From: Parafrankia discariae
GTDB lineage: Bacteria > Actinomycetota > Actinomycetes > Frankiales > Frankiaceae
Assembly (NCBI RefSeq): GCF_000373365.1
Contig: NZ_KB891103.1
Span: 305,474 to 369,473 of the forward strand
Direction of reading: 5' to 3'
Length of the DNA: 64,000 bases
Part shown: in pieces, positions 3,353 through 62,289 of the stretch
Position numbering within the stretch: the stretch's first letter is position 1
How the letters are laid out: each line of letters opens with the position of its first letter
Program-made: the position numbers and the translations under genes
Notes under the pieces: model-generated
The model's database searches: none
The model's input: the letters and a program-made list of their open reading frames with translations, nothing else
Told to the model about the DNA's origin: nothing

Positions 3353-5500
3353 TCACTTCGTCTCAGGATCCGACCTCCGGAACTGTCGTTGGAGGTCGAA
3401 GAGCGTGCCCAGGAGATCTGGCGTGATGTTCGGACTCCCGCCGGCCTGCGGAGGCATGCGCCCCGAACCCGGGTCGACAAGGCCGACGAGAAGATCGACG
3501 ATGCCGTCGGTCACCCGCTCGGCGATCCTGGCCACGCCGGCCGTCGCGGGATCCTGCGCCGCCGGCCCGGTGAGATCCGCGGTCAGCCTGCGTCCTCCCG
3601 CGGCAGACGCACGCAGGGTCAGGCCACGCAGCGGGCCAAGCTCCCGGCCGCCGCGCCGTACCCGGTCGGCCAGCGCCGTCGCCGTGACGAGCGTGAGCTG
3701 GCGGATGGTCGCGTCGTCGAACGCATCGGCAACGGCCCGCGCGAACAGTTCCGGGTCGGGCAGGCGCGTCGCGACGTCGGCCGCCACGAGGACGAGTTCG
3801 TCAGGCCTCGTCCGCAGCAACTCCACGATCACGGTGGCCAGCTCCGGATGGCGCGGCAGCGCGCAGCCGAGCACCGCGAGGACGCCCGCCGCCTGCTCGA
3901 CCGAACAGAGACGGCTCAGGCCGCGAGCGAGCGAGAGATCGGCTACCAGCGTGCCGGCGGCCACGTGCTCCCCGTACGCGTCCGGCCGGATCTGATCGAA
4001 CCTCCATCGGCCTGGATAGAGCACACCGAGCTCCTCCTGACACTGCCGAATCCGCTCCGCGTCGACACCGAGAATCCCGGGCAGCTGGGCCGACAACGCC
4101 TCCGCCGCCAGGAAGGAACCGGGCCGCAGGAGCGTGGCCAGCGCGCAGATCCGGTCGGCCAGACCCGACCGAAGACGGCCATCGCCGTGATCGCTCCCGG
4201 GCCAGCGCCGCCGCTCGTGGTCCAGGAGCGTGGCGAGCGGGGGCCGGGAGCCACGGGTGTGGTCGAGACAGGCGTTCAGCGCCGCCGCGTGGACGTCCAA
4301 CACCGAGTGAAGATCGACGAGATCAGCCGGCGGCACGGCGATCGGCCCGGTCTGTCGCAACTCGACGCGGAACGCCGTGTAGGCCGCCTCGAAGTGGACG
4401 TGGCGCGCCCCGGCCCCGGCCGGAAGCGGCGTCCTCGGCTGAGCCCGGGCGGCCCGGAACAGCTCCCCGACCCCAGCGCCGGCCCGGGCCTCGGCCAGTG
4501 ACCGCAGGTCCTCCAGCAGGAGCTCGGTGGACCGCGTGAGCAGGAGCAGCCGCCGCGGCGAGATACCAGGCGCGGCCCCCTCGGCAAGCGCGGCAGCGAC
4601 CAGAACAGCCTGGTCGGGACACAGCTCGGCGCTGTCGACGACCACCAGCACCGGGACGTCCGACTCGCGCAGACACTGCAGCTGGGCCGGACTCAACGAC
4701 GAGTTGACCACCACCGTCAGCCAACCCTGCTCACTCAGCTCCACGCAGACCCGCATCGCCAGCCGTGTCTTGCCCGAGCCGGCCGCACCCGCCAGCAACC
4801 GCACGGAGACCGGGTCCGATCCAGCCGCCCACAGACGCAGCGCCGCCCGGTCACCGTCGAGCTCGACGAACGGCGCGACGCTGTGCTCGGGCCGCAGCAG
4901 CACACTCGGCGCGCAGGCATCGGAAAGGCGTGGCTCGGGACAGGAGAAGAACATCGCGCCGTGCCCTGCGGCGTCCGGCGCCTCCGGCCCGGGAAACGAC
5001 GGCTGGACGGACACCGCTCTCTCGTCCCACGGGTACGGCGGCGCGGAGGTGGGCTTTCCCCGTCCGCCCGAGACCGCCAGCCCCGCCGCCCACAGCAGCT
5101 GGAAACGAGCGACATCCTGCGGCCGGCCGAACAGGTCGACCGGGACGACCGAGCCGAGCAGCCCCGCAGGCGCGCAGTCCGCGACCCGGGCGACGAGCAG
5201 CCGTCGGCTCCGGCCCGTCGGGTCATCGGCCCAGGCAGCCGACCATTCCGCTCGATTCCGCTCGGAACTGAGGTACTCGTCGGACAGCACCGCGATCATC
5301 CGCTCGGACGACTGCAGACCGTCGTCCATGGCCGCGACCCGGTGGGAGCCGGGAACGGAATCCCAGGCTCGGATCTGAACCCGGTACCCGGCCTCCTCCA
5401 GCGTCCAGGCAATCCACGTCGCCCAGGTCTCGTCCGCCAGTGCATACGACACGTAGAAGTCGTAACCGGCGTGGCCGTCCGCGTCGCAGTGTGAGGTCAC
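3353..5500 (-). CDS. TIR domain-STAND NTPase protein
   Basis: This 715-aa protein starts with a TIR domain (residues about 10-150): 'YDFYVSYALADETWATWIAW', 'AWDSVPGS', 'MIAVLSDEYLSSE', a form common in actinomycete TIR proteins. A P-loop 'LLAGAAGSGKTRLAMRV' follows near residue 235, with a Walker B-like 'VPVLVVVDSAE', marking a STAND-type NTPase. The rest is helical without obvious repeats. Bacterial TIR domains often cleave NAD+, and TIR-STAND proteins are known from abortive-infection immunity; by analogy this may be a single-gene sensor-effector, but no target is evident. The GTG at 5500 is used. The gene stands alone on its strand, as stand-alone defence genes often do. Confidence 0.8.
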   Translation of the reverse strand: MTSHCDADGHAGYDFYVSYALADETWATWIAWTLEEAGYRVQIRAWDSVPGSHRVAAMDDGLQSSERMIAVLSDEYLSSERNRAEWSAAWADDPTGRSRRLLVARVADCAPAGLLGSVVPVDLFGRPQDVARFQLLWAAGLAVSGGRGKPTSAPPYPWDERAVSVQPSFPGPEAPDAAGHGAMFFSCPEPRLSDACAPSVLLRPEHSVAPFVELDGDRAALRLWAAGSDPVSVRLLAGAAGSGKTRLAMRVCVELSEQGWLTVVVNSSLSPAQLQCLRESDVPVLVVVDSAELCPDQAVLVAAALAEGAAPGISPRRLLLLTRSTELLLEDLRSLAEARAGAGVGELFRAARAQPRTPLPAGAGARHVHFEAAYTAFRVELRQTGPIAVPPADLVDLHSVLDVHAAALNACLDHTRGSRPPLATLLDHERRRWPGSDHGDGRLRSGLADRICALATLLRPGSFLAAEALSAQLPGILGVDAERIRQCQEELGVLYPGRWRFDQIRPDAYGEHVAAGTLVADLSLARGLSRLCSVEQAAGVLAVLGCALPRHPELATVIVELLRTRPDELVLVAADVATRLPDPELFARAVADAFDDATIRQLTLVTATALADRVRRGGRELGPLRGLTLRASAAGGRRLTADLTGPAAQDPATAGVARIAERVTDGIVDLLVGLVDPGSGRMPPQAGGSPNITPDLLGTLFDLQRQFRRSDPETK

Positions 5501-5912
5501 CGGCTGAGTGTTGCATCGCCTGTTTCCTGCTGAACGGCTGGCCGCCGTCCCGCGCTATCTCGACAGGTGGGGCCGAGGTGACCGCTGTTCGGAGTCTGTC
5601 TTTCGTTGCCATGAGCGAATCGGCGCGGCGCAGGGTCGGTGCCTGGTCATCCCTCGCCCGCACTCCATTCGATTCTTCCGCGCGTTCCCCGGTCAGCGCC
5701 TCCCCCACCGGGCGGTGAAGACCATGCAGGACGACCCGATGCGCCCCTGCCGCTCCGAGGCCGCCCGGGACCGCCGGGACCCGCCCGGAACCGCGGCCGA
5801 CTGTGGTCTCCCGGCCTCATGCCCGGAGCTGTCCGGCGGGCATGGTGGACGTCCGGCCGGTGGATCGAATCCATACACAACAGGGATGGGCAGGTTCACT
5901 GGCCATATCAAC
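5501..5912. other. intergenic stretch without recognised gene
   Basis: About 410 bases lie between the start of the TIR-STAND gene and the glycosylase remnant. Reading frames here have no recognisable domain and no good ribosome-binding site. It should contain the TIR-STAND promoter, but no -10/-35 pair stands out. Confidence 0.4.
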
Positions 5913-6078
5913 GCGACCTGCTTCAACAGCCGCCGCCCGTCCGCGGCGGTCGTCCACAGCCGTGCGGCGTCGCCGTCGTAACTGTCGACGATCCATCCCC
6001 GCCGGATCCGCCGGGTCCAACGAACGACCGAGCCACCGCGTCAGCTCCTGCGGCGCCGCGAACGCCCGCTCCAACGGA
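5913..6078 (-). pseudogene. 3'-part remnant of an HhH-GPD DNA glycosylase gene
   Basis: On the minus strand this segment matches the intact glycosylase gene at 8083-8658 from about its position 8303 to 8563, with roughly 95 internal bases missing. The deletion joins two GATCC motifs present in the intact gene (near 8384 and 8476), so it looks like loss between short direct repeats. There is no start codon and the frame is broken. The match stops at the gene position corresponding to codon 33, within 5 bases of the point where the dispersed 5'-end copies begin. The matched parts are about 90% identical by eye. Confidence 0.8.
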
Positions 6079-6171
6079 GTCCGCTCGTCCCGGCCAGTCT
6101 CGGAACGATGAAGCGGGGCCGTCCCAGGCGAGGGCCCACGTGTCGGGAGCGCGCACCTCGACACTATGTTA

Positions 6172-7614: not shown

Positions 7615-7956
7615 CAGGCATCAGTCACCGCCGCTGCCTCCTCCAGGTAGTCCCGAAGATCGCTTCCGCGGGTCGTCCACGCGGTGATCCCAGCCTCATC
7701 GATCGGATCGACAATCACGGTTCGGCACGAACCCGGCACTACGCGACTACCCGATCAGGCCAGCCGCGCCCATCCTGCTCCTCGGGTCCGGGTCACGAAT
7801 GATCCTCCGCGGATCCTTCACCGCTTCCAAGGTCCACTCAGGCTCGATATCGGTCGCGCCGGGATAACGATCAGACCGATGCCGGATGTACTCCGCGTCC
7901 TCCTCGTCCCGCCAAAGGCCGTCCACCACCACTTGCAGCGTCACACATCTACTCAC
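7615..7956 (-). pseudogene. frameshifted small protein gene, toxin-like (BrnT/DUF-type)
   Basis: The 5' part encodes 'RDEEDAEYIRHRSDRYPGATD', '...PEWTLEAVKDPRRIIRDPDPRSR', and ends at a TAG at about 7756. In another frame the same coding sequence resumes as 'RTVIVDPIDEAGITAWTTRG', 'SDLRDYLEEAAAVTDA' and stops at 7615. Removing one C in the run near 7740 and reading the TAG as Tyr restores one continuous protein of about 113 aa. It looks like the small actinobacterial proteins resembling BrnT-type toxins. There is no companion antitoxin gene. It is probably dead. Confidence 0.7.
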
Positions 7957-8082
7957 ACGGACGAACGAGCGCCAGACAACGACTACAGTGAGTCAACAGA
8001 GCGCCCGACATCGACGCGCGACCCTGGCCATCCAGCGGACACCTTGCGGACAGGATGGGGAGTTCACTCCCAGACCTGCAGG

Positions 8083-8658
8083 TCAGGCCGTTGCAGCCTT
8101 CACCGCCGCCTTCATCTGCTTCTTGTACTCGCGGACCTTGTCCCGGCTCGGCTGGTCGACGATGTCCGCCACCGAGAGGTAGCTGCCGGCCTCTCCGAAC
8201 GGGGCGGTGGCCTCCCGCCAGCCCGGGGCATCGACGCCGAGCTGCTTGCCGAGCAGCGCCACGAAGATCTTCGCCTTCTGCACCCCGAAGCCGGGCAGCG
8301 CCGCGACCTGCTTCAACAGCTGCCGCCCGTCCGCGGCGGTCGTCCACACGCCCGCGGCATCGCCGTCGTAGCTGTCGACGATGATCCGACAGAGCTTCTG
8401 CGTCCGCTGGGCCATCGCCGCCGGGAACCGGTGCAGCGCGGGCTGGATGGAGAAGACCGCGGCCAGCTCGTCCGGATCCATCCCCGCCAGATCCGCCGGG
8501 TCCAAAGAACGGCCGAGCCGCCGCGTCAGCTCCAGTGGCGCCGCGAACGCGCGCTCCAACGGAATCTGCTGGTCCAGCACCATCCCGATCAACAGCGCCA
8601 ACGGGTCGTTCGTCAACAGCTCGTCGGCCTCGTCGATCTGGCTCAGATGCAGTCCCAC
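8083..8658 (-). CDS. HhH-GPD family base-excision DNA glycosylase
   Basis: This 191-aa protein belongs to the actinobacterial HhH-GPD-type base-excision repair proteins. The N-terminal helices are 'HLSQIDEADELLTNDPLALL' and 'GMVLDQQIPLERAFAAP'; the helix-hairpin-helix is 'LLKQVAALPGFGVQKAKIF' near residues 125-145. No iron-sulphur cysteine cluster is present. It should excise damaged or mispaired bases, but the substrate is unknown. The GTG at 8658 is preferred because the dispersed copies of its 5' end conserve the frame from this codon; an in-frame ATG at 8679 would add seven residues. Its first 30-31 codons are repeated at least seven times to the right, making this the intact parent of an array. 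Confidence 0.85.
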   Translation of the reverse strand: MGLHLSQIDEADELLTNDPLALLIGMVLDQQIPLERAFAAPLELTRRLGRSLDPADLAGMDPDELAAVFSIQPALHRFPAAMAQRTQKLCRIIVDSYDGDAAGVWTTAADGRQLLKQVAALPGFGVQKAKIFVALLGKQLGVDAPGWREATAPFGEAGSYLSVADIVDQPSRDKVREYKKQMKAAVKAATA

Positions 8659-8677
8659 ATCATCACCGTAGCCGACC
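8568..8677 (-). repeat. parent copy of the dispersed glycosylase 5'-end repeat
   Basis: This segment, from 20 bases before the GTG start to codon 31 of the glycosylase gene, is the part found again at 13.3, 14.7, 16.4, 19.0, 24.7, 28.6 and 37.2 kb. All copies lie on the minus strand. Beyond 8568 the intact gene continues with its own sequence, while the copies change to a shared flank containing TTCCGGAACC or close variants. Confidence 0.9.
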
Positions 8678-8799
8678 ATGTCGGCCGGCCGCCGCGGCAG
8701 ACACGGACCGTCACGAGCTCGCCGCCGAGTCATCGCCCACTGACGATCCGCCGCGCTACGCGCACGGGATCTACGTGCCCATGCTGGCCGGGTGCCTAC

Positions 8800-8970: not shown

Positions 8971-10548
8971 CTACTCCATCTTTCCGGAACCGACTGGTTC
9001 AGCACCCCGCGATGTGCGCGCGCCGGCCGGGTTCGCCCCCACCATGAGAGGGCGGGGTTCCGCTATGCGTCGACCTGCGCGTCGTATGCGTAGTGACGCC
9101 AGTCCGGCGGCGAACACGAGCAGGCAGGCCCAGGCGAACCAGTCACCGAATCTGGAGTACACGGTAGGAGCGGCTGGAGACGGCAGCCTGGTGACCACGG
9201 CCGCGATGGTCGCTGTGTCACTGCGTTTCTCGGCCAGCACCCGGCCGGTGGGATCGCTGACCGTCAGATCGCCTCTGCGTGCCGACCGTGCGATGGTGAC
9301 ACCGCTCTCGACACCCCCGGTGACAGCGATGCGGCTGTGAAGCCACCCATCGTTGCCAAAGTCCCACGCGGGCACGAAGACACCGGTCGCGCCGCGCTGG
9401 CGGTAGTCGCGGATCAGGCCAGGGAAGTCCATGTCCTTACAGACCGCGAGTGCCCATTCCCCGCCGGGGCCCGGTACGAGCATCGGCTGGTCGCCGGGAC
9501 TCAGGTCGCTTTCGGCGCCGGGGATCAGGTGACGCTTGTAGTAGACGGCGGGTGTTCCCTGGCCGGCTTGGAAGTCGATCGCGGCGTTGTAGGTCGTGCC
9601 GCCGCGGGTGAGTACCAGTCCGACGACCACGTCGATCTTCCGTTGCGAGGCGAGGCGGGCCAGGGGTTCCGAGAGCACGCGCAGGCTGCTGTCATCCGCG
9701 GCGAAGACCTTCTCCGGGATGACCACGACGCGAACCCCGCCCGTCGCCACGTCTCGGACGCGGGCAAGGTAGCGATCCAGCAGCTCGCGGCCCGCGGGCG
9801 TGACCAGGGAGACCGGGTCGTCGGGCCGGTCGGCGGCGAGCAGTGCCACCTTCGCCTCCTGTCGGCCAGGGGCGTGGGCCAGGTGCCAGCCGCCGTATCC
9901 AAGTGCCACAGCCAGCAAGGTCACGGCGACCGTGATGGCCTTCGCGCGACCCACCACGCCCGGCGCCAAGAGCACCGCCGCCGTGCTCGGGATCAGCAGG
10001 ACCAGGAAGGTGACGCCCCACGGCCCGGTGACGGACACCGTCTGCAACACCAGAAGCAGGTCAGCCTGGGTGTATGCCAGGCTCCACCAGGCGCCATGCG
10101 GCATCGCCAGCGACAGCAGGTACTCGAAGCCGGCCCACGTCACGGGCAGGAAGCACGCCGCGATCAGCGTTCGCCGTCGCACGAGCAGAGCATTGGTTCC
10201 CAGGACTGTGAGCCCGAACGCCAACGCCGTGCCGATGATGATGGACGTGCCCACCGCTGGTGGCATGTCCAGCGTCCCCAGAAAGTAGCCCCAGAGCTGG
10301 CTCTCCCCGCCGAGCCATGCGACGAACGCGAGGGCGAACGCCGCACGGGCGCTGAGACGAAGGGCCACCGCGAGCACCGGCAGGGGCGCAAGCCAGGTGA
10401 ACCAGGGGCACGGCTGTAGTCCGGTGCCCAGGCGGAACAGGAGCGACGACACCAGGACGGCCGCCACGGCCGCGACGGTCTGACGCGCCGCGATGGTCAC
10501 GGGCACCGGCACCGACGTTGCCGTTGGGGTTGGGGTTGGGGTTTTCAC
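8971..10548 (-). CDS. lnt: apolipoprotein N-acyltransferase-like membrane amidase
   Basis: This 525-aa protein has about seven membrane helices in residues 18-225 and then a nitrilase-fold domain with the expected Glu-Lys-Cys triad: Glu in 'VVVIPEKVFA', Lys in 'YYKRHLIPG' and Cys in 'ALAVCKDMDF'. A final helix 'WFAWACLLVFAAGL' precedes a basic tail. Lnt moves an acyl chain to the N-terminal Cys of lipoproteins; the standard enzyme has the same layout, but this one may be a paralogue because the gene sits in an accessory region. The start is GTG at 10548 with GGGAG nine bases upstream. The N-terminus is a TPTPTPT run, and the last residues come from repeat DNA. Confidence 0.8.
   Translation of the reverse strand: MKTPTPTPTATSVPVPVTIAARQTVAAVAAVLVSSLLFRLGTGLQPCPWFTWLAPLPVLAVALRLSARAAFALAFVAWLGGESQLWGYFLGTLDMPPAVGTSIIIGTALAFGLTVLGTNALLVRRRTLIAACFLPVTWAGFEYLLSLAMPHGAWWSLAYTQADLLLVLQTVSVTGPWGVTFLVLLIPSTAAVLLAPGVVGRAKAITVAVTLLAVALGYGGWHLAHAPGRQEAKVALLAADRPDDPVSLVTPAGRELLDRYLARVRDVATGGVRVVVIPEKVFAADDSSLRVLSEPLARLASQRKIDVVVGLVLTRGGTTYNAAIDFQAGQGTPAVYYKRHLIPGAESDLSPGDQPMLVPGPGGEWALAVCKDMDFPGLIRDYRQRGATGVFVPAWDFGNDGWLHSRIAVTGGVESGVTIARSARRGDLTVSDPTGRVLAEKRSDTATIAAVVTRLPSPAAPTVYSRFGDWFAWACLLVFAAGLASLRIRRAGRRIAEPRPLMVGANPAGARTSRGAEPVGSGKME
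8975..9007 (-). repeat. short remnant of the glycosylase 5'-end repeat inside the lnt 3' end
   Basis: About 33 bases match the flank-plus-boundary part of the other copies (compare 13294-13325): CCATCTTTCCGGAACC followed by CTGGTTCAGCACC. The match stops there. The last codons and the stop codon of lnt are read from this remnant. Confidence 0.55.
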
Positions 10549-13242: not shown

Positions 13243-13283
13243 CCTAGGCATTGTTGTCTCGGGCGCGAGATCTGTGCGCTCCG

Positions 13284-13417
13284 TCCTTCCCGCTCCATCC
13301 CTCCGGAACCCGCTGGTCCAGCACCATCCCGATCAGCAGCGCCAGCGGGTCGTTCGTCAGCAGCTCGTCCGCCTCGTCGATCTGGCTCAGATGCAGTCCC
13401 ACGCCGTCACCATAACC
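13284..13417 (-). repeat. glycosylase 5'-end copy 1 (nearest)
   Basis: The coding part 13313-13417 matches the intact gene with about 9 differences by hand count. Over codons 1-30 all four differences are synonymous, so it still encodes the same 30 residues from the GTG start. Left of 13313 it carries the flank TCCGGAACCCGCTGG shared with other copies. No coding sequence continues past codon 31. Confidence 0.88.
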
Positions 13418-13541
13418 GGGACACCGGCGAAACCACGGAGGGCATTCCGCGCGACCGGGCCACCTTCGAGTTGGCTCCTGGCCGCGCGGCGTCGGACGAG
13501 CGAGAGCTGGGTCCTCCGTCGCGGGCTCAGACCGTGACGCC

Positions 13542-14177
13542 CTACGCAGGTGGGAGAGCGTCGACCAGGTTGAAGACCGTGCTCGGATCGCGCCCGGCGA
13601 ACAGCAGCGAGATCACGACTGCCGCCATGGCCTCGAGATGATGAGCATGGCGGAGATCGCCGACCGACACGGGTTCGCCTCCCACTTGCTCGATCAGCTG
13701 GCGGGCGACGGCCGCCGCGGCGGCCTCGTCCGTGCAGTACGGAACAGATAGCCGACGCCCGTCGAACAACGGCTCATCCATCTTCCACACGCGGGCATGG
13801 CACAGGTTGAATGCCTTCACCACCTGCCCGCCGGTCGCATTCTGGATCTCCCACGCCATGGCCTGGCCAGGGGCGGTGACCAACGTGAAGTGGTCGACCT
13901 CGACGGGGTTGTTGCAGTCGATTACCGGTTTGCCGCGCAGGCCGTCGCCGATCGCCGCCAGCGTGGCGGGCATCCCCTGGTAAAGAACCGCGATCAACGC
14001 CGCGTCGCCGAACGCGGCCGTCTCCTGAAACCCACCGACCCGGCCGCCCCACTTCTCCGCCAGAGCACGCGCCTTCTGTGTCGTTCGGCCCGCGACCATC
14101 AGCTCGTGACCGGCCGCCGCCCAGCGGGTTCCGAGTGCGTCCGCCATCACACCAGCACCTAGGATTCCGATTCGCAT
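13542..14177 (-). CDS. F420-dependent NADP reductase-like oxidoreductase
   Basis: The 211-aa protein begins with the Rossmann motif 'MRIGILGAGVMADALGTRW' and 'LMVAGRTTQKA', which would select NADP through the Arg; later 'PVIDCNNPVE' and 'VVKAFNLCHARVW' are typical of the NADPH-dependent F420 reductase-like family (NAD_binding_10/F420_oxidored). Without the F420-binding residues checked it could be a general NADP oxidoreductase. It is 45 bases downstream of an HxlR regulator on the same strand, forming a two-gene unit. A paralogue, also beside an HxlR gene, is at 53213. Confidence 0.8.
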   Translation of the reverse strand: MRIGILGAGVMADALGTRWAAAGHELMVAGRTTQKARALAEKWGGRVGGFQETAAFGDAALIAVLYQGMPATLAAIGDGLRGKPVIDCNNPVEVDHFTLVTAPGQAMAWEIQNATGGQVVKAFNLCHARVWKMDEPLFDGRRLSVPYCTDEAAAAAVARQLIEQVGGEPVSVGDLRHAHHLEAMAAVVISLLFAGRDPSTVFNLVDALPPA

Positions 14178-14222
14178 GCCGGCGACGCTAGGCAGCCATG
14201 GGGAACCATCCGGTGCCCTACG

Positions 14223-14567
14223 TCAGGCAAACGAGTCGTCGCCGAGTTCCTCCGCGTGCTCCTCGGCCCAGCGGGCGAGCACGGATACTGGCGCCAGCAG
14301 GCTCCGGCCCAGGTCGGTGAGCCGATACTCGACGCCCTTGGGCGCTGTGGCCAGGTCTCGCCGCTCGACGATGCCCCGCCGTTCAAGCTTCCGGAGAGTC
14401 TGAGTCAGCATCTTCTTGCTGATCCCACCAATCCGAGCACGAAGATCGGTGTAGCGCCGAGGACCGTCCCGGAGGGCGTACACCACCACGACCGACCAGG
14501 TATCGGCGATGACCTCCAGGGTCGTGCGAGCCGGGCAGTCGGCTACGAAGACGTCATAGTCGGCCAT
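14223..14567 (-). CDS. HxlR family transcriptional regulator
   Basis: This 114-aa winged-helix protein shows the HxlR pattern: 'CPARTTLEVIADTWSVVVVY', 'LRDGPRRYTDLRARIGGISK', 'KMLTQTLRKLERRGIVERR' and 'VEYRLTDLGRSLLAPV'. The single Cys near the N-terminus is the redox- or electrophile-sensing position in several relatives. It starts at ATG 14567 and precedes the F420-type reductase in the same direction, so it probably regulates itself and the reductase. Confidence 0.9.
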   Translation of the reverse strand: MADYDVFVADCPARTTLEVIADTWSVVVVYALRDGPRRYTDLRARIGGISKKMLTQTLRKLERRGIVERRDLATAPKGVEYRLTDLGRSLLAPVSVLARWAEEHAEELGDDSFA

Positions 14568-14639
14568 CGAACCCTTGTCACGCCACCTTGGCCGTCATGC
14601 CAGCGCAGGACGCGGCCGCCTCGTCGGCCAAGCTCGGGG

Positions 14640-14767
14640 ATCACTCCACGGTTCCGACATCCGCTGGTCCAGCACCATGCCGATCAGCAACGCCAACGGG
14701 TCGTTGGTCAGCAGTTCGTCCGCCTCGTCGATCTGGCTCAGGTGCAGTCCCACACCTTCACCGTAGC
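14640..14767 (-). repeat. glycosylase 5'-end copy 2
   Basis: The match to the intact gene spans 14664-14767, with about 11 differences by hand count. Over the first 30 codons all differences are synonymous, so the same 30 residues are encoded. The left flank is weaker (GTTCCGACATCCGCTGG). It lies between the HxlR start and the GNAT stop. Confidence 0.88.
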
Positions 14768-14856
14768 GGACCACCGCCGCGGCAACATCGTGCGGCCATC
14801 TGGCTCAGCTCGATGAGCCAACATCCGCGCGGCCTGGTCGAGTTGCCGTGATCTGA

Positions 14857-15312
14857 TCAGGTCAGGTAGATCCGAAACCCGGCGGCGGACTGGGTGAAGC
14901 CGACCGCCGCGTAGAAGGCGTGAGCTTTCGACCGGTCGTTGCGGGACAGAAGCTGAACCTTGTAGCAGTTGGAGGCGCGAGCGGCATCGAGAACGTGGGT
15001 CATAAGCGCCTCGCCGACACCGCGGCGGCGGGTCTGGGCGTCGACGACCATGTTTTCGACGATCGCCCACGGCCGGCCGCCGTGCGTCAGGTTAGCGATG
15101 ATCACTAGATCGGCGGTACCGACAACCCTGTCACCGGCCTCGGCAACGAGCAACCGCCGGGCCGGGTCGGTGAGGATGCGCGCGAGGACCGGGCCGGCGA
15201 CGGCCGGGTCGGTTGGCAGCGACCCGATCGGAAAGCGAGCGAGCTGCCGGTACAGTTCGAGCAGCGCGGGAAGATCATCGGTGACCGCGAGCCGGATGCG
15301 GAGGCTGCGCAT
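14857..15312 (-). CDS. GNAT family N-acetyltransferase
   Basis: The 151-aa protein has the GNAT fold: 'IRLAVTDDLPALLELYRQL' at the start, 'IVENMVVDAQTRRRGVGEAL' with the R/Q-x-x-G-x-G/A acetyl-CoA loop, and 'NCYKVQLLSRNDRSKAHAFY' followed by 'AAVGF', the usual motif B. It should acetylate an amine on a small molecule or peptide; the substrate is unknown. It starts at ATG 15312 and is followed downstream by a glycosylase 5'-end copy. Confidence 0.88.
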   Translation of the reverse strand: MRSLRIRLAVTDDLPALLELYRQLARFPIGSLPTDPAVAGPVLARILTDPARRLLVAEAGDRVVGTADLVIIANLTHGGRPWAIVENMVVDAQTRRRGVGEALMTHVLDAARASNCYKVQLLSRNDRSKAHAFYAAVGFTQSAAGFRIYLT

Positions 15313-15407
15313 GACACCGATCTTGCCGCCGGCTCGCCGCGCCGATCAAGGCCGCCGTTCGGCCGTTCGCAACGACGGAGCGTCAGCCCGGGATCGCGAG
15401 GAGCGTC

Positions 15408-15893
15408 TCAGATCGGTTCGACGACGATGTCAGCGCGGTCGAGGGTGGCGGTGTAGGCGGCTATGTCGTCCGGGTCGCTGGTGAGGATCTGGGCCGGGCC
15501 GTGAAGAGCAGCCGCTATGACGACCAGGGCGTCGATGACGTCCGGTCGCTTCTTCGTGGGAAGCCTGGCCTCGGCGAGCATGGCCCCCGCCCGTTTATAT
15601 GAGTCGAGGGTGAAGGTTCTCGCGCAGGCAACGCAGCCGGCGGGGAGACTCGACACGCCGCGCACAGGTGGCGTGCTCTCCCGAGTCTGGGGCACGGTGC
15701 AGTCCTTCAGGTACTGACTGAAGGCATGAACCGTCTCCGGGTCTGGTCGCCACGCCTGGGCGAGGACCGGGCCGATGACGACCGGCCGGTGCGGAGCCGC
15801 GCGTAGGCCGTGGTGGAGCAGCCGCGCCGAGGAGCTGTCTCGCAGGAGCGCCACCAGCATCCCGGCGTCATAGACGACAGTACGCGCGATCAT
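15408..15893 (-). CDS. PIN-domain toxin (VapC-like ribonuclease)
   Basis: The 161-aa protein has the spaced acidic residues of a PIN nuclease: Asp9 in 'VVYDAGMLVALL', Asp pair in 'KKRPDVIDALVVIAA' and Asp in 'ILTSDPDDIAAY'. Such proteins cut RNA. Its start overlaps the stop of the upstream antitoxin gene by four bases (15890-15893), the usual antitoxin-first order. The central insert with Cys residues ('LPAGCVACARTF') is unusual for VapC. No Mg-binding residue is obviously missing. Confidence 0.82.
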   Translation of the reverse strand: MIARTVVYDAGMLVALLRDSSSARLLHHGLRAAPHRPVVIGPVLAQAWRPDPETVHAFSQYLKDCTVPQTRESTPPVRGVSSLPAGCVACARTFTLDSYKRAGAMLAEARLPTKKRPDVIDALVVIAAALHGPAQILTSDPDDIAAYTATLDRADIVVEPI

Positions 15894-16201
15894 GCGACGC
15901 TTGCGGTGTCCGATCCAAGCGCGCTGTTCAGGACCCGGCGGACGAGCGCCTGCTCGTCCGCCGCCAAGGCGTCGAACGAAGGCAGGTCCGCCTCGGAGAC
16001 GTCGACAGTCTGCTCAAGGGCTGCCTGGTTGCGCGCGTCAAGGGCCGCGAAGGTCGCCGTGGCGGCATCGTCGCGCGCCATCTGCGCGACGGCCGCCGCG
16101 ACCATGTAGGCGGACACATCCATACCTGCCGCCTCGGCATGCATCCTGATCGCGGCCTGGACGTCCGAGGCCGTCGAGATCGTGAACCGAATGTTTGGCA
16201 T
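15890..16201 (-). CDS. antitoxin partner of the PIN toxin
   Basis: The 103-aa protein begins 'MPNIRFTISTASDVQAAIRM' and 'AAGMDVSAYMVAAAVAQMAR', a ribbon-helix-helix layout, then a helical and acidic C-terminus that would bind the toxin. The ATG at 16201 is chosen over an upstream GTG-type extension because it opens directly on the DNA-binding ribbon. An inverted repeat at 16209-16229 just upstream is a likely self-regulated operator. Confidence 0.8.
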   Translation of the reverse strand: MPNIRFTISTASDVQAAIRMHAEAAGMDVSAYMVAAAVAQMARDDAATATFAALDARNQAALEQTVDVSEADLPSFDALAADEQALVRRVLNSALGSDTASVA

Positions 16202-16229: not shown

Positions 16230-16309
16230 CGTCGTGACCACCATGCCACGGGCCGCGTTCCGCCGACGACCCGACCGAAGCAGGCCGTCGATACTGGGCT
16301 CCGCCTACC

Positions 16310-16440
16310 GATCGTTCCTTGTTTGTCCGACTTGCCGGTCCAGCACCATCCCGATCAGCAACGCCAACGGGTCGTTGGTCAGCAGTTCGTTTGCCTCGTC
16401 GATCCGGCTCAGGGGCAGTCCCACCTTTTCACCGTAGCCG
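16310..16440 (-). repeat. glycosylase 5'-end copy 3
   Basis: The match spans 16335-16440 with about 14 differences. The 30-codon frame is still open, but four residues have changed (H4P, Q7R, D12N and Q30R in gene numbering), so decay at the protein level has begun. It lies upstream of the antitoxin gene. Confidence 0.85.
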
Positions 16441-16655
16441 ACCGCACCGCGACGGCCGACAAGCCGCCGGTCAGACCGCTAAGTAGCCGGCGCGGTCCTG
16501 CCGCCGGGCATCACCGATTCCGTCGCCAGACATCACCGACCGCCCGGACGAGGCGCACAGGGCTTACGCACGGGGCTTACAGGGAGCCCGCGCCCGGCGG
16601 ACAGGCCGAGAGTGAGTGATCATAGCCAGATGATCAAAGTCATCCACTGTGCTAG

Positions 16656-16699: not shown

Positions 16700-18379
16700 A
16701 TGGATCGGAAGTGGTGGGCGCTGGCCGGCGTCGCGGTGGCCGTCTTCGCCGTTGGCGTGGACGGAACGGTGCTGGCGGTGGCGCTGCCGACGCTTGCGGT
16801 GAAGCTGCATGCCTCGGGCACGGATCTGGTGTGGTTCTCCTCGGCGTATCTGCTGACCTGGGCCGCGGCGATGCTGCCGTTGGGGTCGCTGGGTGACCGG
16901 TACGGGCGGCGCCGGGTGATGATCGCCTCTCTGGCCACCTTCGGGGCCACCTCGGCCTGGGCCGCCTGGTCCGGTTCGGCGGCCATGTTCATCGCCGCGC
17001 GCGCGGTGGGCGGAATCGCCGGGGCCGGCATCGTGGTGATGGCCATGTCGGCGGTCACGGTGATGTTCGCCGAGGACGAGCGTTCCCGAGCGGTCGGCGT
17101 GTGGGCGGGCGTGAACTTCCTGGCTCTGCCGACCGGACCGATTCTGGGCGGCTGGCTGCTCGACCGGTTCTGGTGGGGCTGGGTCTTCCTCGTCAACGTG
17201 CCGGTCGTGATCATCGCACTGGTCGCGGTGGTGGCTCTGGTGCCAGAGTCCCGGGGGTCGCACTGGGGCCGGCTCGATCTCGTGGGGATGACTCTGTTCA
17301 GCGGGGCACTGACCGGGCTGGTCTACGGGTTCACCGAGGCGGGCACCCGTGGTTGGGGCTCGACGGTCGTGATCTGCGCACTGCTGGCCGGCACCCTGTT
17401 GATGCTCGTGTTCGCAGCCTGGCAGCGTCGCCTGACCCGCCGCCTGCCCGTGGCACCGGTCACGGCTCGGACACGGGAGCCGCTGGTCGACATCGGCCTG
17501 TTCCGCATCCCCGACTACGTCTGGGGCACGGTCCTGGCCTTCCTGTGCTCGTTGGCGATGATCGGGGTGGTGTTCATCCTGCCGCAGTACTTCCAGGCCG
17601 TGCTCGGCGTGGACTCCATCGGCTCCGGCCTGCGGCTCCTCCCGCTGCTCGGCGGGCTCGCCGTCGGCGCGGTGGGTGCCGAGCCACTCACGAAGACGAT
17701 GGGCGCGAAGGTGGTGCTCGTCGGCGGCTTCACGGTGCTGAGCGCCGGCCTGGCACTCGGGTCCGGCACGAGCACGGGCAGCGGTTTCGGGTTTGTGTCC
17801 GCCTGGACCTCGATCACCGGCGCCGGGCTCGGCGCGGTCCTCGCCACGGCCACGGCCGCCGCGCTCGGGCGCGTCCCCGTCGCCCGGGCCGGTGTCGCCT
17901 CGGCCCTCATCCAGGCGTTGCAGGATGCCGGTAGCCCGTTCGGCGCCGCGATACTCGGAACCACCGCACTCGCCAGCTACCGCGCCAGCCTCGATGCCAC
18001 CCCGGCGATGACCGAGCTCACCCCGGCCCAGGCTGGTGTCGCGCGCGGCGGGGTCTTCGACGGCACCGCGCTGGCCCAGCAGCTCCACTCACCAGCCCTG
18101 CTCGCCGACATCCGCTCGGCGTTCGTCGACGGCGTCGACACCGCGTTGCTCGTCTGCGGCGGGATAGCGTTCACCGGGGCGCTTCTGGCGCTGGCACTGT
18201 TCCCACGCCGAGCGACCATCTACTCGCCAGACGCGACCGACGCCGGCGATGAAGGCGACGTTGTCGGAACCGACAGCGTCGCCGCCGGCGTGTCGGGGCC
18301 GTCGCCTGTCAGCCAGGCGGGTGACAGGGCAATGATCGACACAGCACGCGCTGACACCGTTGTCGGAGGGAGCGAGTAA
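16700..18379 (+). CDS. MFS transporter, DHA2 (14-helix) drug efflux family
   Basis: The 559-aa protein has about 14 hydrophobic helices. 'DGTVLAVALPTLAVKLHASG' (motif D1-like with the intramembrane Asp) and 'LGSLGDRYGRRRVMIA' (motif A) mark the DHA2 drug:H+ antiporters such as EmrB/QacA. The C-terminal 60 residues are hydrophilic. The ATG at 16700 has AAAGGTG seven bases before it; a frame extension upstream covers the operator and is rejected. The TetR gene follows with no gap, so pump and repressor are co-transcribed and the likely signal is a pump substrate. Confidence 0.93.
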   Translation: MDRKWWALAGVAVAVFAVGVDGTVLAVALPTLAVKLHASGTDLVWFSSAYLLTWAAAMLPLGSLGDRYGRRRVMIASLATFGATSAWAAWSGSAAMFIAARAVGGIAGAGIVVMAMSAVTVMFAEDERSRAVGVWAGVNFLALPTGPILGGWLLDRFWWGWVFLVNVPVVIIALVAVVALVPESRGSHWGRLDLVGMTLFSGALTGLVYGFTEAGTRGWGSTVVICALLAGTLLMLVFAAWQRRLTRRLPVAPVTARTREPLVDIGLFRIPDYVWGTVLAFLCSLAMIGVVFILPQYFQAVLGVDSIGSGLRLLPLLGGLAVGAVGAEPLTKTMGAKVVLVGGFTVLSAGLALGSGTSTGSGFGFVSAWTSITGAGLGAVLATATAAALGRVPVARAGVASALIQALQDAGSPFGAAILGTTALASYRASLDATPAMTELTPAQAGVARGGVFDGTALAQQLHSPALLADIRSAFVDGVDTALLVCGGIAFTGALLALALFPRRATIYSPDATDAGDEGDVVGTDSVAAGVSGPSPVSQAGDRAMIDTARADTVVGGSE

Positions 18380-18988
18380 TTGTCGCCGGAGCGGCCATCG
18401 TGGAGTCAGACGCAGACCATCGCGCTCAAGCAGGCGATCCAGTCGACCGCGCTGCGGCTGTTCGCCGAGCGAGGATACGCCGAGACCACGGTCAGCATGA
18501 TCGCCGAAGAGGTCGGGGTCGCGGCGCGGACCTGCTTCCGGCACTTCCCGACCAAGCCCGACATGGTCCTGTGGGACGCCGCCGACTACGATCTCCTGTC
18601 CCACTTCCGCGCCCGCCCGGCCGGCGAGGGCGTCATCACGGCCTTCCGCGAGGCGCTGCGCGCCGGCTACGCCGCCCTGAGTCCCGACCAGCGTGCCCTG
18701 GAGCAGCACCGCACCGAGCTCATCGCCGCGATACCCGAGGTCCGCGCGGCGCACCTGGATCACCTCACCTCCGCCACGCACGAGTTCACCGTGGCCGTGG
18801 CAGAACGTGCCGGACGCAAGGCGAACGACCCCGACGTCATCGCAGTCAGCGGCGCCATCATCGGCGTCATGATGATCAGCCAACTCGACACGTCCAGGCG
18901 ACCCGCACCGTCCTCGCCGCACCGGGACCCGCTTGTTGCGATCGACGACGCCCTGGCCCGGCTGCAACGAGGATTCGGCGCACTCTGA
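18380..18988 (+). CDS. TetR/AcrR family regulator of the MFS pump
   Basis: The 202-aa protein has the TetR helix-turn-helix 'TALRLFAERGYAETTVSMIA' and 'EEVGVAARTCFRHFPTKPDM'. It starts at TTG 18380, immediately after the pump's TAA, with GGAGGGAG about 10 bases upstream. It most likely represses the operon through the inverted repeats at 16611-16670. Its stop codon is followed within ten bases by a truncated glycosylase 5'-end copy. Confidence 0.9.
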   Translation: MSPERPSWSQTQTIALKQAIQSTALRLFAERGYAETTVSMIAEEVGVAARTCFRHFPTKPDMVLWDAADYDLLSHFRARPAGEGVITAFREALRAGYAALSPDQRALEQHRTELIAAIPEVRAAHLDHLTSATHEFTVAVAERAGRKANDPDVIAVSGAIIGVMMISQLDTSRRPAPSSPHRDPLVAIDDALARLQRGFGAL

Positions 18989-18994
18989 CCGGAA

Positions 18995-19042
18995 ACGGCA
19001 GCTCGTCCGCCTCGTCGATCTGGCTCAGGCGCAGTCCCACCT
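18995..19042 (-). repeat. glycosylase 5'-end copy 4 (truncated)
   Basis: Only about 45 bases match: the start codon and codons to about 14 (H4R, then a break). The codon 15-31 part and flank are missing, having been replaced by the 3' end of the TetR gene. Confidence 0.75.
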
Positions 19043-19223
19043 CCACGCTCCGGGCACCAGCAGCCGCTGCCAACGGCTGGTTGATCAAAACTGCGCAGTG
19101 ATCAGCAACACCCGGGCCTCCACGACCCGATACGACAGGAACGTGACGTCGGAATCTCGCCAGACTTCCGCTGCCACAGCCGCCACAGTTGAGGGGAACC
19201 ATATAGACGGGAGTTCGGGAAGA

Positions 19224-24607: not shown

Positions 24608-24702
24608 CGTTCGTTCTCTCCGGCACCCGCCGGTCCAGGACACCCGCCGGTCCAGCGCCATCCCGACCAGTGGGGCCGACGGGTCGTCGGTCAGCTCGTC
24701 CG
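24608..24702 (-). repeat. glycosylase 5'-end copy 5 (degenerate)
   Basis: The flank GTTCGTTCTCTCCGGCACCC is well kept, followed by a doubled CACCCGCCGGTCCAG and about 55 bases of the codon 12-31 region at roughly 80% identity with one codon lost. The start-codon end is missing. The XRE gene's stop codon lies two bases past the repeat. Confidence 0.7.
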
Positions 24703-28532: not shown

Positions 28533-28566
28533 GTGTTCCCCACCTCAGGAGTGAGCCGGCGGCACC

Positions 28567-28693
28567 ACGTTCGTTCCGGCCGAACCTCGCTGGTCCAGCA
28601 CCATTCCGATCAGCGGTGCCGACGGGCCGTTCGTCAGCGGCTCGGCCGCCTCGTCGATCTGGCTCAGGTGCCGGCTTGTGGAGTCACAGTAGC
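28567..28693 (-). repeat. glycosylase 5'-end copy 6
   Basis: The matching part is 28590-28693, with about 24 differences in 109 positions. The start codon is lost and many residues are changed (for example A-A-E-P-L for A-D-E-L-L). The flank GTTCGTTCCGGCCGAACC is kept. It lies 58 bases upstream of the cupin-MarR start. Confidence 0.82.
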
Positions 28694-37082: not shown

Positions 37083-37146
37083 GTTTCGGCCGCCGGAGAG
37101 TGCCGGCGAGCCATGACCGTCATGATCAGAGATCGTTGTCGGCGCC

Positions 37147-37273
37147 GCGTTCGTTCTTTCCGATACCAGCTGGTCCAGAACCATACCGACAAGGAGCACA
37201 TGCGAGTCGTTGGTCGACGACTCCTCGGCCTCGGCAATCCGGCTCAGATGAAGTCCCACGTCATCACCGTAGC
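37147..37273 (-). repeat. glycosylase 5'-end copy 7 (farthest)
   Basis: The matching part is 37170-37273, with about 24 differences in 109. The frame is open and starts with GTG but many residues have changed (for example S-R-I-A-E-A-E-E-S-S). The flank GTTCGTTCTTTCCGATACC is kept. Confidence 0.82.
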
Positions 37274-46373: not shown

Positions 46374-48272
46374 ATGTCCAGCGACAGTTTGAGCAACGAC
46401 GAGATACGTGAGCTCGCACGCGTCTTCCAGAAGCAGCAGGCGGCCGGCCATCTGCTGGACGCGGCAGGCTTCCCGCGCGGGCGCCATCCGACCTGGGCCG
46501 CGCAGAACTCCGAGGATTTCTGGCGACAGGTCAGCTCCGAGCTCAGCTCCGGCGTCCTTCATGACGGACGTCACCGTGTTCTCGCGGCCGCCCACAGCGT
46601 GTTTCCCGCGAACGTCGTCTTCGCCGCCGCCACCCAGCTCCGGGATCCGCCCGACGGGGTCCCCGGCGGAACCTCGCCAGTCCGATCCGTGCGGCTGTGG
46701 CGCCGGGGTCCGCTCGCGAGCCCCAGGACCCGGGTGGCTGTGGCCGCCGGGCTTGTTCTCGTCCTGGCCGGCGTCAGCCTGGCCGCCGGTTTCGCTCTGA
46801 CAAGCGGGGTAAGCGGCGGTCGTGAGCTGCGTCTGGAGCTCGCCGGCAAGCCGACCCTTGACGCGTTTATGCCGCCTGTCGGCCAGGACGAAGTCGTCGA
46901 GCCGCTTTCCTCCTCGCAGGGGCCGGTCAGCGGCGTCATACCAGCGGAGACCGTCGGCCTTTACGGGGGCACCAGGAACGCAGGCACCTGCGACCGGGAC
47001 AAGATGGTCCGCTACCTGCGTGATAATCCGCCGTTACTGGCTGCCTGGACAGGTGTTCTCCAGGTGAAGCCGGCGGATCTCGATGCCTTCGTTAAATCCC
47101 TGACGCCGGTCGTTCTGCGCGCCGACACCCTCGTCACGAACCATGGGTACAAGTCCGGCTCGGCGACGTCTTTCCAGGCGGTGCTGCAGGCCGGGACGGC
47201 GGTACTCGTCAACGGCGCGGGTGTACCGGTCGTCAAGTGCGGCTGCGGGAACCCGCTGACCAGGCCGGCGGTCAACCCCGTCGAGGCGAAGAAGGCGAAG
47301 ACCGTCGGCGAGGCCTGGCCACGTTTCTCGAAGAACACACTGACCCAGACGCAGCCACACGAGATCCCCGCGGACGTGTTCGTTCTCGTCGACGTGAAAT
47401 CGGACCAGCCCTTCACACGCGAACGCGGTTCCGCCGGGGAAGGCGACCACGACTTCACCCCGGCAGCCGACACGGACTGGCTCAACACCAAATATCACGT
47501 GGACTGCGCCGGGGAGAAGTCATTCACGGCGGAAAACGGCGTTGGTACCCTGACCGACGCGACGGGAACCTACGAACTGCGCGTGTTGAAGGTGGCCGTC
47601 GGCGACCTGGCGGGCAGCTCACATCGCGAGGTCGCGGTCCTGCTCTCGTGCGGCGCGAGCGGCAGTCCACACAAGAATCTGCTGTACGTCTACTACGATG
47701 GTCCTAATATTCTCGATCATCCGCAGCCACCGCTGGACAACGGCCAGCAGGCCACAGATTTCACCGGAGGTCGGCTGGCTGTCGAGAACGGGCTGCTCGT
47801 CACCGAGGCGAGTTTCCCGAGTACGGCCGGATCGGGTACCGGGGCGACACGCGATGCGCGATTCCTGTGGAATGGGCAACGCTTTGTCCCCACCTCGCTG
47901 ACCGCAAGCCCATCGCCTGGGACGAGCACTCCGGGCAGCAAGAAGGAAAACATCTCCGGCACCTGGCGGGGGGAGCTGCACATCACTCAGCCGGGCCCGT
48001 ACGAAGCTCCGGTCATCCTGGAGATCAATCAGAATGGTTCGTCCATCACCGGCACCATCAGCTCGCCCGACAGCGTGGCCGCAAGCGCGTGTGGCCTGAG
48101 CGGGCGCCCGATCTCCGGGACACTCGACGGCGACAAGATCGAGTTCGCCGTCTCCGATGATCCGAACGAGACCCGCTTCGAGGGACAGGTTCAGGGGGAC
48201 ACCATCGCGGGAACCGGGACGTCTCGGTGCTACGACGGCCGGGGCACCTGGAGCGTGCGGCGCGGCGGCTGA
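46374..48272 (+). CDS. EAD1-transmembrane-DUF6777 protein, possible conflict-system component
   Basis: The 632-aa protein has an N-terminal death-like effector-associated domain 1 (residues about 5-85): 'SNDEIRELARVFQKQQAAGH', 'LLDAAGFPRG', 'DFWRQVSSELSSGV' and 'HRVLAAAHSVFPAN'. One membrane helix follows ('VAVAAGLVLVLAGVSLAAGF'). The outside part has a DUF6777-like domain ('NAGTCDRDKMVRYLRDNPPL' and 'VVKCGCGNPLTRP') and a C-terminal beta-rich domain ('ISGTWRGELHITQPGPYEAP'). EAD1 domains recruit partner effectors through homotypic contacts. A role in sensing envelope damage or phage is inferred. ATG 46374 has a GGGGG-type site. No EAD1 partner is within the window. Confidence 0.8.
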   Translation: MSSDSLSNDEIRELARVFQKQQAAGHLLDAAGFPRGRHPTWAAQNSEDFWRQVSSELSSGVLHDGRHRVLAAAHSVFPANVVFAAATQLRDPPDGVPGGTSPVRSVRLWRRGPLASPRTRVAVAAGLVLVLAGVSLAAGFALTSGVSGGRELRLELAGKPTLDAFMPPVGQDEVVEPLSSSQGPVSGVIPAETVGLYGGTRNAGTCDRDKMVRYLRDNPPLLAAWTGVLQVKPADLDAFVKSLTPVVLRADTLVTNHGYKSGSATSFQAVLQAGTAVLVNGAGVPVVKCGCGNPLTRPAVNPVEAKKAKTVGEAWPRFSKNTLTQTQPHEIPADVFVLVDVKSDQPFTRERGSAGEGDHDFTPAADTDWLNTKYHVDCAGEKSFTAENGVGTLTDATGTYELRVLKVAVGDLAGSSHREVAVLLSCGASGSPHKNLLYVYYDGPNILDHPQPPLDNGQQATDFTGGRLAVENGLLVTEASFPSTAGSGTGATRDARFLWNGQRFVPTSLTASPSPGTSTPGSKKENISGTWRGELHITQPGPYEAPVILEINQNGSSITGTISSPDSVAASACGLSGRPISGTLDGDKIEFAVSDDPNETRFEGQVQGDTIAGTGTSRCYDGRGTWSVRRGG

Positions 48273-61189: not shown

Positions 61190-62053
61190 GTGACGGCGAG
61201 GAACAGTGGTCCCACAGTGCGGCGCCGACGGCTCGGCGCCGAGCTCCGCCGGCTGCGCGAGACCGCCGGCGTCGACGTCGAGCAGGTCCGCGAGGTGCTG
61301 CGCTGCTCGGCGTCGAAGGTGAGCAGGTTGGAGAACGGGCGGATCCCGGTACGCACGAAGGACGTCGCGGACCTGCTCCGGCTGTACGGGGTGACCGATG
61401 CCGACCACCGCGGGGCGCTGCTCGGCCTGGCCCGGGAGTCGCGGCGGCACGGCTGGTGGCAGGCCTATCAGGACGTGGTCCCAGCCTGGTTCGAGGTGTA
61501 CATCGGCCTCGAGGCGGACGCTTCCTCGATCAGCGTGTACGAGCCGCAACTCGTCCACGGCCTGCTGCAGACCGCGGACTACGCGCGGGCGGTGATGCGG
61601 GCGAGCAACCCGGAGGCTCCCGACGACGAGATCGAGCGCCGGGTGGCGCTGCGGCTCGACCGGCAGTCCCGCCTGCGTGGCGACAACCCGCCCCGGCTCT
61701 GGGTGATCCTCGACGAGGCGGTCCTGCGTCGTCCGGTCGGCGGCGCGGCGGCGATGCGCGCCCAGCTCGAGCGGGTCGCGAAGGCGGCCGAACTGCCGAA
61801 TGTCACCGTTCAGGTGCTTCCCTTCGCGGCCGGGGCACATGCCGGCCTGGGCAGCACATTCTCCGTTCTGGGATTCGCGGACGAGACGGATCACGATGTG
61901 GTCTACATAGAAAAAGGCGCCGGAAGCCTCTACCTGGAACGTCCGTCAGAAATTCGCCGCTATAGAGTCAGGCTGGATCACCTGATGGCGTCCGCTCTTG
62001 GCCCGGCGGACTCCGTGGCGTTGATTTCCGCCGTTTCGGAGGCACTTCGATGA
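61190..62053 (+). CDS. XRE family regulator with DUF5753 domain
   Basis: The 287-aa protein has an HTH 'LGAELRRLRETAGVDVEQVR' and 'EVLRCSASKVSRLENGRIPV', then DUF5753: 'WFEVYIGLEADASSISVYEP', 'LVHGLLQTADYARAVMRASN' and 'LDEAVLRRPVGGAAAMRAQL'. This is the actinomycete WhiJ-like class that partners a DUF397 protein; some such pairs act as antitoxin and toxin. GTG 61190. The DUF397 gene overlaps its stop by four bases. Confidence 0.93.
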   Translation: MTARNSGPTVRRRRLGAELRRLRETAGVDVEQVREVLRCSASKVSRLENGRIPVRTKDVADLLRLYGVTDADHRGALLGLARESRRHGWWQAYQDVVPAWFEVYIGLEADASSISVYEPQLVHGLLQTADYARAVMRASNPEAPDDEIERRVALRLDRQSRLRGDNPPRLWVILDEAVLRRPVGGAAAMRAQLERVAKAAELPNVTVQVLPFAAGAHAGLGSTFSVLGFADETDHDVVYIEKGAGSLYLERPSEIRRYRVRLDHLMASALGPADSVALISAVSEALR

Positions 62054-62289
62054 GGACATCCGGGAAACCCGCGATCACCGACCCGTCCACGCTGCCCTGG
62101 CGCAAGAGCCGGCACAGCGGCGGGGAGGGCGGCATGTGCGTCGAGGTGGCCGACGTGGACGGCGGTGTGGCGGTCCGCGACTCCACCGACCCGCTCGGCC
62201 CGGTTCTCGCCTTCAGCGGCGCGGAGTGGGACGCGTTCCTCGCCGGCGTCCACGACGGCGAGTTCGACCGCCCGCGCGCCCACCGCTGA
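62050..62289 (+). CDS. DUF397 protein
   Basis: The 79-aa protein has the DUF397 landmarks 'LPWRKSRHSGGEGGMCVEVA' and 'GGVAVRDSTDPLGPVLAFSG', then 'AEWDAFLAGVHDGEF'. In Streptomyces such proteins (BldB/WhiJ-associated) work with an adjacent XRE regulator; a toxin role held in check by the XRE protein has been proposed. ATG 62050 overlaps the XRE stop by four bases. Confidence 0.93.
   Translation: MRTSGKPAITDPSTLPWRKSRHSGGEGGMCVEVADVDGGVAVRDSTDPLGPVLAFSGAEWDAFLAGVHDGEFDRPRAHR

Follow-up and report, generated by a model that had tools for sequence, protein, structure and literature searches.

The window, a 64,000-nucleotide stretch of DNA from Parafrankia discariae, carries one working TIGR03252 base-excision repair gene, together with pieces of the same gene and cassettes of other genes (Table 1). 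We found that 5′-end copies lie to the right of the gene and a 3′-part remnant lies to its left, and that all of them break at the same short core, GCTGGTCC. The gene matches of the 5′-end copies start at 8560–8568 and reach approximately 8672–8678 (copies at 13304, 14659, 16333, 28589 and 37169, with a weak copy at 24646 and an eroded one at 18999), and all copies in the window are on the plus strand, oriented like the gene. The 3′ remnant consists of two pieces, with approximately 92 gene bases missing between them, and a further 8–9 bases match across the core, to position 6090. In the whole 7.9-Mb assembly, clear copies were found at the TIGR03252 locus only, the two other matches having E values of approximately 0.004.

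An earlier note, made from the sequence alone, had claimed that the break points of the 5′ copies and the 3′ remnant of this glycosylase gene nearly coincide, and this claim was confirmed. Two of its details required correction. The 5-base gap that it placed between the two kinds of fragment does not exist, because both include GCTGGTCC (8568–8575) and thus overlap by one core, and the break falls at codons 36–38, counted from the ATG at 8677–8679, rather than at codons 31–33. The candidate core that it named, GGAATCTGCTGGTCCAGCACC, held, as it contains the exact centre of the site; the crossover is best placed at the TC at 8573–8574. Fragment ends scattered widely over the gene would have refuted a shared break point, and no such scatter was seen in the genome of the window or in its relatives.

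Table 1. Features of the TIGR03252 locus in the window. The att names are the probable assignments argued for in the text.
Feature	Position	Strand	Evidence or remark
Remnant (3′ part) of an earlier gene copy, internally deleted (B half of attL)	5912..6081	-	91% and 90% identity to gene 8302-8382 and 8475-8575
Core and P′-type arm beside the remnant (attL)	6083..6124	+	arm scores 20.7 without shift (99.9th percentile of background, 3.5)
TIGR03252 HhH-GPD base-excision repair gene, working copy and target (attB host)	8083..8679	-	NCBIfam TIGR03252 E 9.4e-87; Pfam PF00730
attB dyad around the core; proposed crossover at TC 8573-8574	8557..8590	.	centre equals attP-arm centre; mosaic switch at codon 35/36
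Shared core GCTGGTCC	8568..8575	+	common to gene, 5′ copies and 3′ remnant
attR 1: arm, core (13312) and 5′-end copy	13282..13418	+	
Cassette between attR 1 and 2: F420-dependent oxidoreductase and HxlR regulator	13542..14567	-	
attR 2: arm, core (14663) and 5′-end copy	14633..14773	+	
Cassette between attR 2 and 3: GNAT acetyltransferase and putative toxin-antitoxin-like pair	14857..16201	-	
attR 3: class I arm, core (16334) and 5′-end copy	16304..16443	+	
Cassette after attR 3: MFS transporter and TetR regulator	16700..18988	+	
Eroded 5′-end copy, only gene 8617-8661 left	18999..19043	+	
Weak 5′-end copy, core at 24646	24616..24700	+	
attR: arm, core (28589) and 5′-end copy	28559..28671	+	
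attR: arm, core (37169) and 5′-end copy	37139..37273	+	
Conserved right chromosomal flank: helix-turn-helix/DUF5753 and DUF397	61217..62289	+	syntenic in 8-9 genomes, 1.5-52.6 kb from gene

The same pattern fills the TIGR03252 locus in nearly all of 34 Frankiaceae genomes. We searched 58 relatives for copies, and nearly all members of the family were positive, with up to approximately ten scars per genome in some 30 genomes. The Frankiaceae arrays contain 98 non-functional 5′ copies, nearly all of which begin on the core side, and 14 or more 3′ remnants whose gene match ends at the core. The 5′ copies of the relatives occur at one locus and in one orientation and span the region between core and start codon. 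In many relatives, loose 3′ parts that break off at the core lie to the left of the gene, and 16 of the 28 loose 3′ pieces end within 8555–8567. The profile behind these end-mapping counts includes some arm sequence; when the gene alone was used for the search, the starts fell mostly at 8560–8572. The left and right chromosomal flanks are conserved, and the distance between the gene and the right flank is largest in the window. Among approximately 50 TIGR03252 loci from other actinobacteria and MAGs, no array was found. Two of these loci have a single 5′ copy with its break at the same codons (L192 7036–7142 and L196 587–685), outside the array-bearing Frankia genomes and in other flanking sequence, one of them in an Acidimicrobiaceae MAG.

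In place of the 3′ side of the gene, the 5′ copies carry a conserved arm, which falls into one of three related classes; examples are CGTTCCTTGTTTGTCCGATTT, CGTTCGTTCTTTCCGAAACCC and CCGCTCCATCCTTCCGATACTG. Across 87 copies, the information content was 0.58 bits per position over the 30 bases beside the core and 0.08 over the next 30, and the same conserved arm stands beside unrelated cassettes. In the 3′ remnants, the 5′ side of the gene is replaced by the reverse complement of this arm: all 14 matched best at zero shift, with the register set by a centre between core bases 6 and 7, and all 14 scored above the 99.9th percentile of the background. Four intact arm–core–arm dyads were also found, including CGTTCCTTGTTTACCCGATCTGCTGGTCGCAGCACATCGGACAAACAAGGAGCG in genome G016, which has an attP at C213:48022–48065, and a reversed control pattern yielded no match in the dyad search. 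Together, the arms on the 5′ copies, their reverse complements on the 3′ remnants and the intact sites support the further claim of the earlier note, that the break point is a specific recombination site rather than a product of random decay. No clear result was obtained by eye as to whether the arm classes follow a mirror order on the two sides of the arrays.

The site in the gene itself is a shorter dyad, GGGATCTGCTGGTCCAGCACCATCCC in most relatives, and it has the same centre, TC at 8573–8574, as the intact dyads. Accordingly, we assigned the gene as attB, the intact dyads as attP, the 3′ remnants (B–P′) as attL and the 5′ copies (P–B′) as attR. We consider this assignment likely; the recombination of attP with attB is inferred. 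Sites in which the P halves extend further than the B halves from a common dinucleotide are characteristic of large serine recombinases, and two criteria for an element of this type, both concerning the sites, are fulfilled: attB and attP are distinct imperfect dyads that share their central dinucleotide, and attL and attR are hybrids.

The cassettes carry accessory cargo, namely oxidoreductases and regulators, a transporter, an acetyltransferase and toxin–antitoxin-like pairs, and the same cassettes turn up at differing array positions from genus to genus. A PIN-toxin/antitoxin pair follows the P′ arm directly to the right of attL in G012, G016, G019, G027 and other genomes; it is present in nine genomes overall, with 89% identity both within and between genera. 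The putative toxin–antitoxin-like pair of the window (15408–16201, minus strand) is found in five genomes, the window and four others, and directly adjoins a class I arm in at least three of them. This pair has no Pfam match, and its antitoxin weakly resembles MobA. In G034 (contig C736, L074), two identical 485-bp 3′ remnants stand in tandem at 7675–8159 and 9736–10220, with different P′ arms.

The TIGR03252 gene behaves as cargo rather than like the genes of the flanks. Its identity is 79.8% within genera and 75.7% between them, resembling that of cassette genes, whereas the identity of flank genes drops from 92% to 73%, or from 76% to 55%. Several 3′ remnants, including two in G034, are 87–93% identical to the working genes of other genomes and 73–80% identical to the working gene of their own. 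The nearest relatives of the 5′ part and the 3′ part of a working gene often differ, as in the pairs G000/G023 (95% versus 72%) and G027/G030 (98% versus 74%). In seven discordant pairs, identity at third codon positions remains high up to and including codon 35 and drops at codon 36, in a stretch that was not used for picking the pairs. Thus, the two halves of the working gene probably have partly separate histories, and the change-over falls at codon 35/36, where the crossover is predicted; this inference rests on seven pairs that lack independence, and in its correlation form the test was only suggestive.

Serine recombinase genes adjoin some of the 5′ copies. Three genes with Resolvase and Recombinase domains, one of them with a detected zinc ribbon, are present in G013, which we take to be F. 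casuarinae CcI3, and one degenerate gene is present in G012; these four genes end approximately 40–65 bp upstream of the start codon of a copy. All four look truncated or broken, and in one case a transposase gene lies directly upstream of the cut N terminus. The gene piece beside the recombinase in G012 runs approximately 45 bp past the core and is followed by an attP arm. Adjacency is not universal, as two further recombinase fragments (G017 and G032) have no recognizable adjoining copy. No intact recombinase was found in any array; an intact member of this clade, 50% identical, is present in G028. No recombinase was found among the array genes scanned in the window, and a search of the window with the recombinases from 44 loci was likewise negative; the single apparent match was to a neighbouring hydrolase within a fused query. 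Since most cassettes lack a recombinase gene, the enzyme either acted in trans or decayed after insertion.

We rejected an origin of the recombinase in known phages or plasmids, as its relatives there are distant, with less than 60% identity. TIGR03252 itself had no match in phages and only remote matches in plasmids, viral contigs contained neither a recombinase relative nor an attR match, and a sequence search of the PDB gave no match. Separately, a tyrosine recombinase gene of G002 (contig C14, L043 2391–3758) directly adjoins the working gene at its 3′ end, and an attR lies 16 kb to the left of that gene, the sole clear case on the left side. It is possible that the tyrosine recombinase belongs to another element at the same gene.

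Taken together, the 5′ copies and 3′ remnants with the same break, the arms, the dyads, the mosaic genes and the recombinases lead us to the reading that the break point is the attB of a large-serine-recombinase-type integration system within a conserved DNA-repair gene of the Frankiaceae. We consider this reading likely, as we do the proposal that cassettes integrated serially into a gene that was rebuilt each time, leaving an array; the recombinase type and the array model go beyond what the earlier note had proposed. The recombinase family, the order of events, the arrival of replacement halves and the supply of a promoter are inferred. In the proposed mechanism, incoming DNA with arm–core sites would recombine at the central TC of GCTGGTCC and split the gene, and the part kept in use would be completed by a half from the incoming DNA: in most cases a new 5′ end, covering the core to the start codon, and in some cases a new 3′ part. 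The old half would be pushed outward as a scar, attR (arm and old 5′ end) to the right or attL (old 3′ part and arm) to the left, and repeated rounds would line up cassettes, each holding one to a few genes, into an array. The incoming DNA may also bring its own promoter. Canonical serine integrases join attP to attB and leave one attL for each attR, and the scars in these arrays are unbalanced, with approximately 90 attR and approximately 14–20 attL. This excess of attR implies either that the incoming sites were mostly of the P–B′ kind, bringing a new 5′ end as dusA islands do, or that whole-gene elements inserted and their left scars were later lost; both can operate, and the data do not decide between them.

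The strongest rival to this model holds that every element carries a complete replacement TIGR03252 gene and that a canonical insertion leaves one attL and one attR. The left scars would then have been lost either through homologous recombination, with the long 3′ repeats of 485 bp as partners, or by excision between non-cognate attL and attR sites, which would also make mosaics. In its favour, arm-bearing 3′ remnants are present and correspond to foreign gene types, the piece of the gene next to the G012 recombinase reaches approximately 45 bp beyond the core, and recombinase genes lie just upstream of the start of the gene. However, attL sites are few, the history of the 5′ half of a working gene is partly separate from that of its 3′ half and the G012 piece ends soon after the core, so that we lean slightly against this version without dismissing it. 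Less plausible is the view that one or a few site-specific events were followed by homologous recombination between the copies, with circles reinserted by RecA. The copies are direct repeats of approximately 110 bp that are 75–90% identical, and the arrays clearly gain and lose units, which speaks for this view. Nevertheless, it predicts switches anywhere in the 110 bp, whereas the observed switch is at the core, and it leaves the three arm classes, the reverse-complement arms of attL and the intact attP sites unexplained; we regard it as unlikely.

A tyrosine recombinase of the dusA-island type could instead do the joining, with the serine recombinase genes as passengers. Replacement of a 5′ end is known for dusA islands (PMC4482086), and a tyrosine recombinase gene does lie beside the 3′ end of the gene in G002. 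However, G002 is the only case beside the gene among the matches examined, and serine enzymes are a better fit to sites whose P arms are long, whose B dyad is shorter and which have a single dinucleotide in common; this makes this explanation very improbable. Ordinary duplication followed by random decay, with ends that meet by chance, can be all but ruled out. Some pieces are indeed eroded (the copy at 18999 and several 3′ pieces), but decay cannot place the ends at one point in some 30 genomes, nor can it give unrelated cassettes the same arm and the opposite fragments its reverse complement; it is already contradicted by the arms and the intact attP dyads.

The serine-recombinase array that we favour resembles several known systems without matching any of them. 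The integration point of islands and prophages at dusA lies within the 5′ end of a conserved protein-coding gene, with the element supplying a new 5′ end and the old one being carried to the far side (PMC4482086). The Frankiaceae arrays would be alike in this 5′-end replacement, an inference supported here by attR structure and mosaic genes, no event having been observed. The dusA islands are ascribed to an integrase family of their own and have 21-bp sites; they are described as single islands, and the word ‘tandem’ is absent from that text (PMC4482086). Their integrases are tyrosine recombinases. By contrast, the sites here are dyads of the serine type, the arrays hold up to approximately ten scars and 3′ parts are exchanged too; the dusA criterion, insertion in dusA by a dusA-type integrase, is not met, as the target is TIGR03252 and the copy-adjoining recombinases are of the serine type. 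The Ccr enzymes of SCC and SCCmec are large serine recombinases, and those elements target one housekeeping gene, which is kept working, and accrete in tandem; the arrays share the inferred recombinase type, the single conserved target gene that stays functional and the tandem accretion. SCC inserts at the 3′ end of rlmH and retains its ccr genes, whereas the site here is at codon 36 near the 5′ end, long gene fragments remain at each junction and nearly all cassettes lack a recombinase. The SCC criterion, ccr genes with insertion at the rlmH 3′ end, is not met because both gene and position differ, and the Frankia recombinase scored only 18.4 bits against CcrB, far below the cut-off of 900.

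Chromosomal integron arrays consist of many small cassettes, with one to a few accessory genes apiece, and have toxin–antitoxin-like pairs, direct repeats at the junctions and one insertion end, and they depend on a tyrosine recombinase and attC hairpins. They resemble the Frankiaceae arrays in cassette size, toxin–antitoxin-like cargo, direct repeats and the single insertion end. However, the repeat here combines an arm with the coding 5′ end of a host gene, and the scan of the window's array genes revealed no integron integrase. PAISt of Streptomyces turgidiscabies is an island at a palindrome in a conserved gene and excises in modules (PMC4057263). It is likewise actinobacterial but differs in being one island at an 8-bp palindrome at the 3′ end of bacA. 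The AICEs of Frankia are integrating elements located nearly always at the 3′ ends of tRNA genes and equipped with tyrosine recombinases (PMC3218068). They share the bacterial hosts and integration with the arrays and differ in tRNA sites and recombinase type; the AICE criterion is not met, since no replication or TraB-type transfer genes were found among the array genes scanned in the window. That paper neither mentions the glycosylase nor describes the TIGR03252 locus. The best label is therefore probably a large-serine-recombinase integration hotspot of a new arrangement, as the defining features of dusA islands and SCC are absent and integron membership is not established. We found no description of this system, and no paper that links HhH-GPD to attB, in the literature searched, most subscription papers being outside the search.

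A bolder reading, which we regard as no more than possible, is that the locus is a serine-recombinase counterpart of the integron, in which small cassettes without a recombinase, each closed by an arm and the 110-bp 5′ end of the gene, would move in trans as circles into one fixed gene. Each insertion would swap the first 36 codons, and possibly the promoter, so that the gene would be continually reassorted across the family. Under the more limited reading of a probable integration hotspot, a conserved repair gene serves as a family-wide docking site for accessory DNA in the nitrogen-fixing Frankiaceae and keeps a readable fossil record of it, which raises the question of how a serine recombinase could build one-sided arrays. 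It also offers a working gene whose two halves appear to have been inherited partly separately. Frankia has been described as lacking genetic tools (PMC3218068), and the att half-sites, being already defined, provide candidate attB/attP pairs for such tools.

Two other genes in the window lie outside the cassettes listed in Table 1. Just to the left of the attL remnant, a gene at 3356–5500 (minus strand) encodes a TIR-domain protein with a STAND-like NTPase region; it is possibly a defence gene, the PADLOC match being weak. A protein with the effector-associated domain EAD1 and DUF6777 is encoded at 46374–48272 (plus strand).
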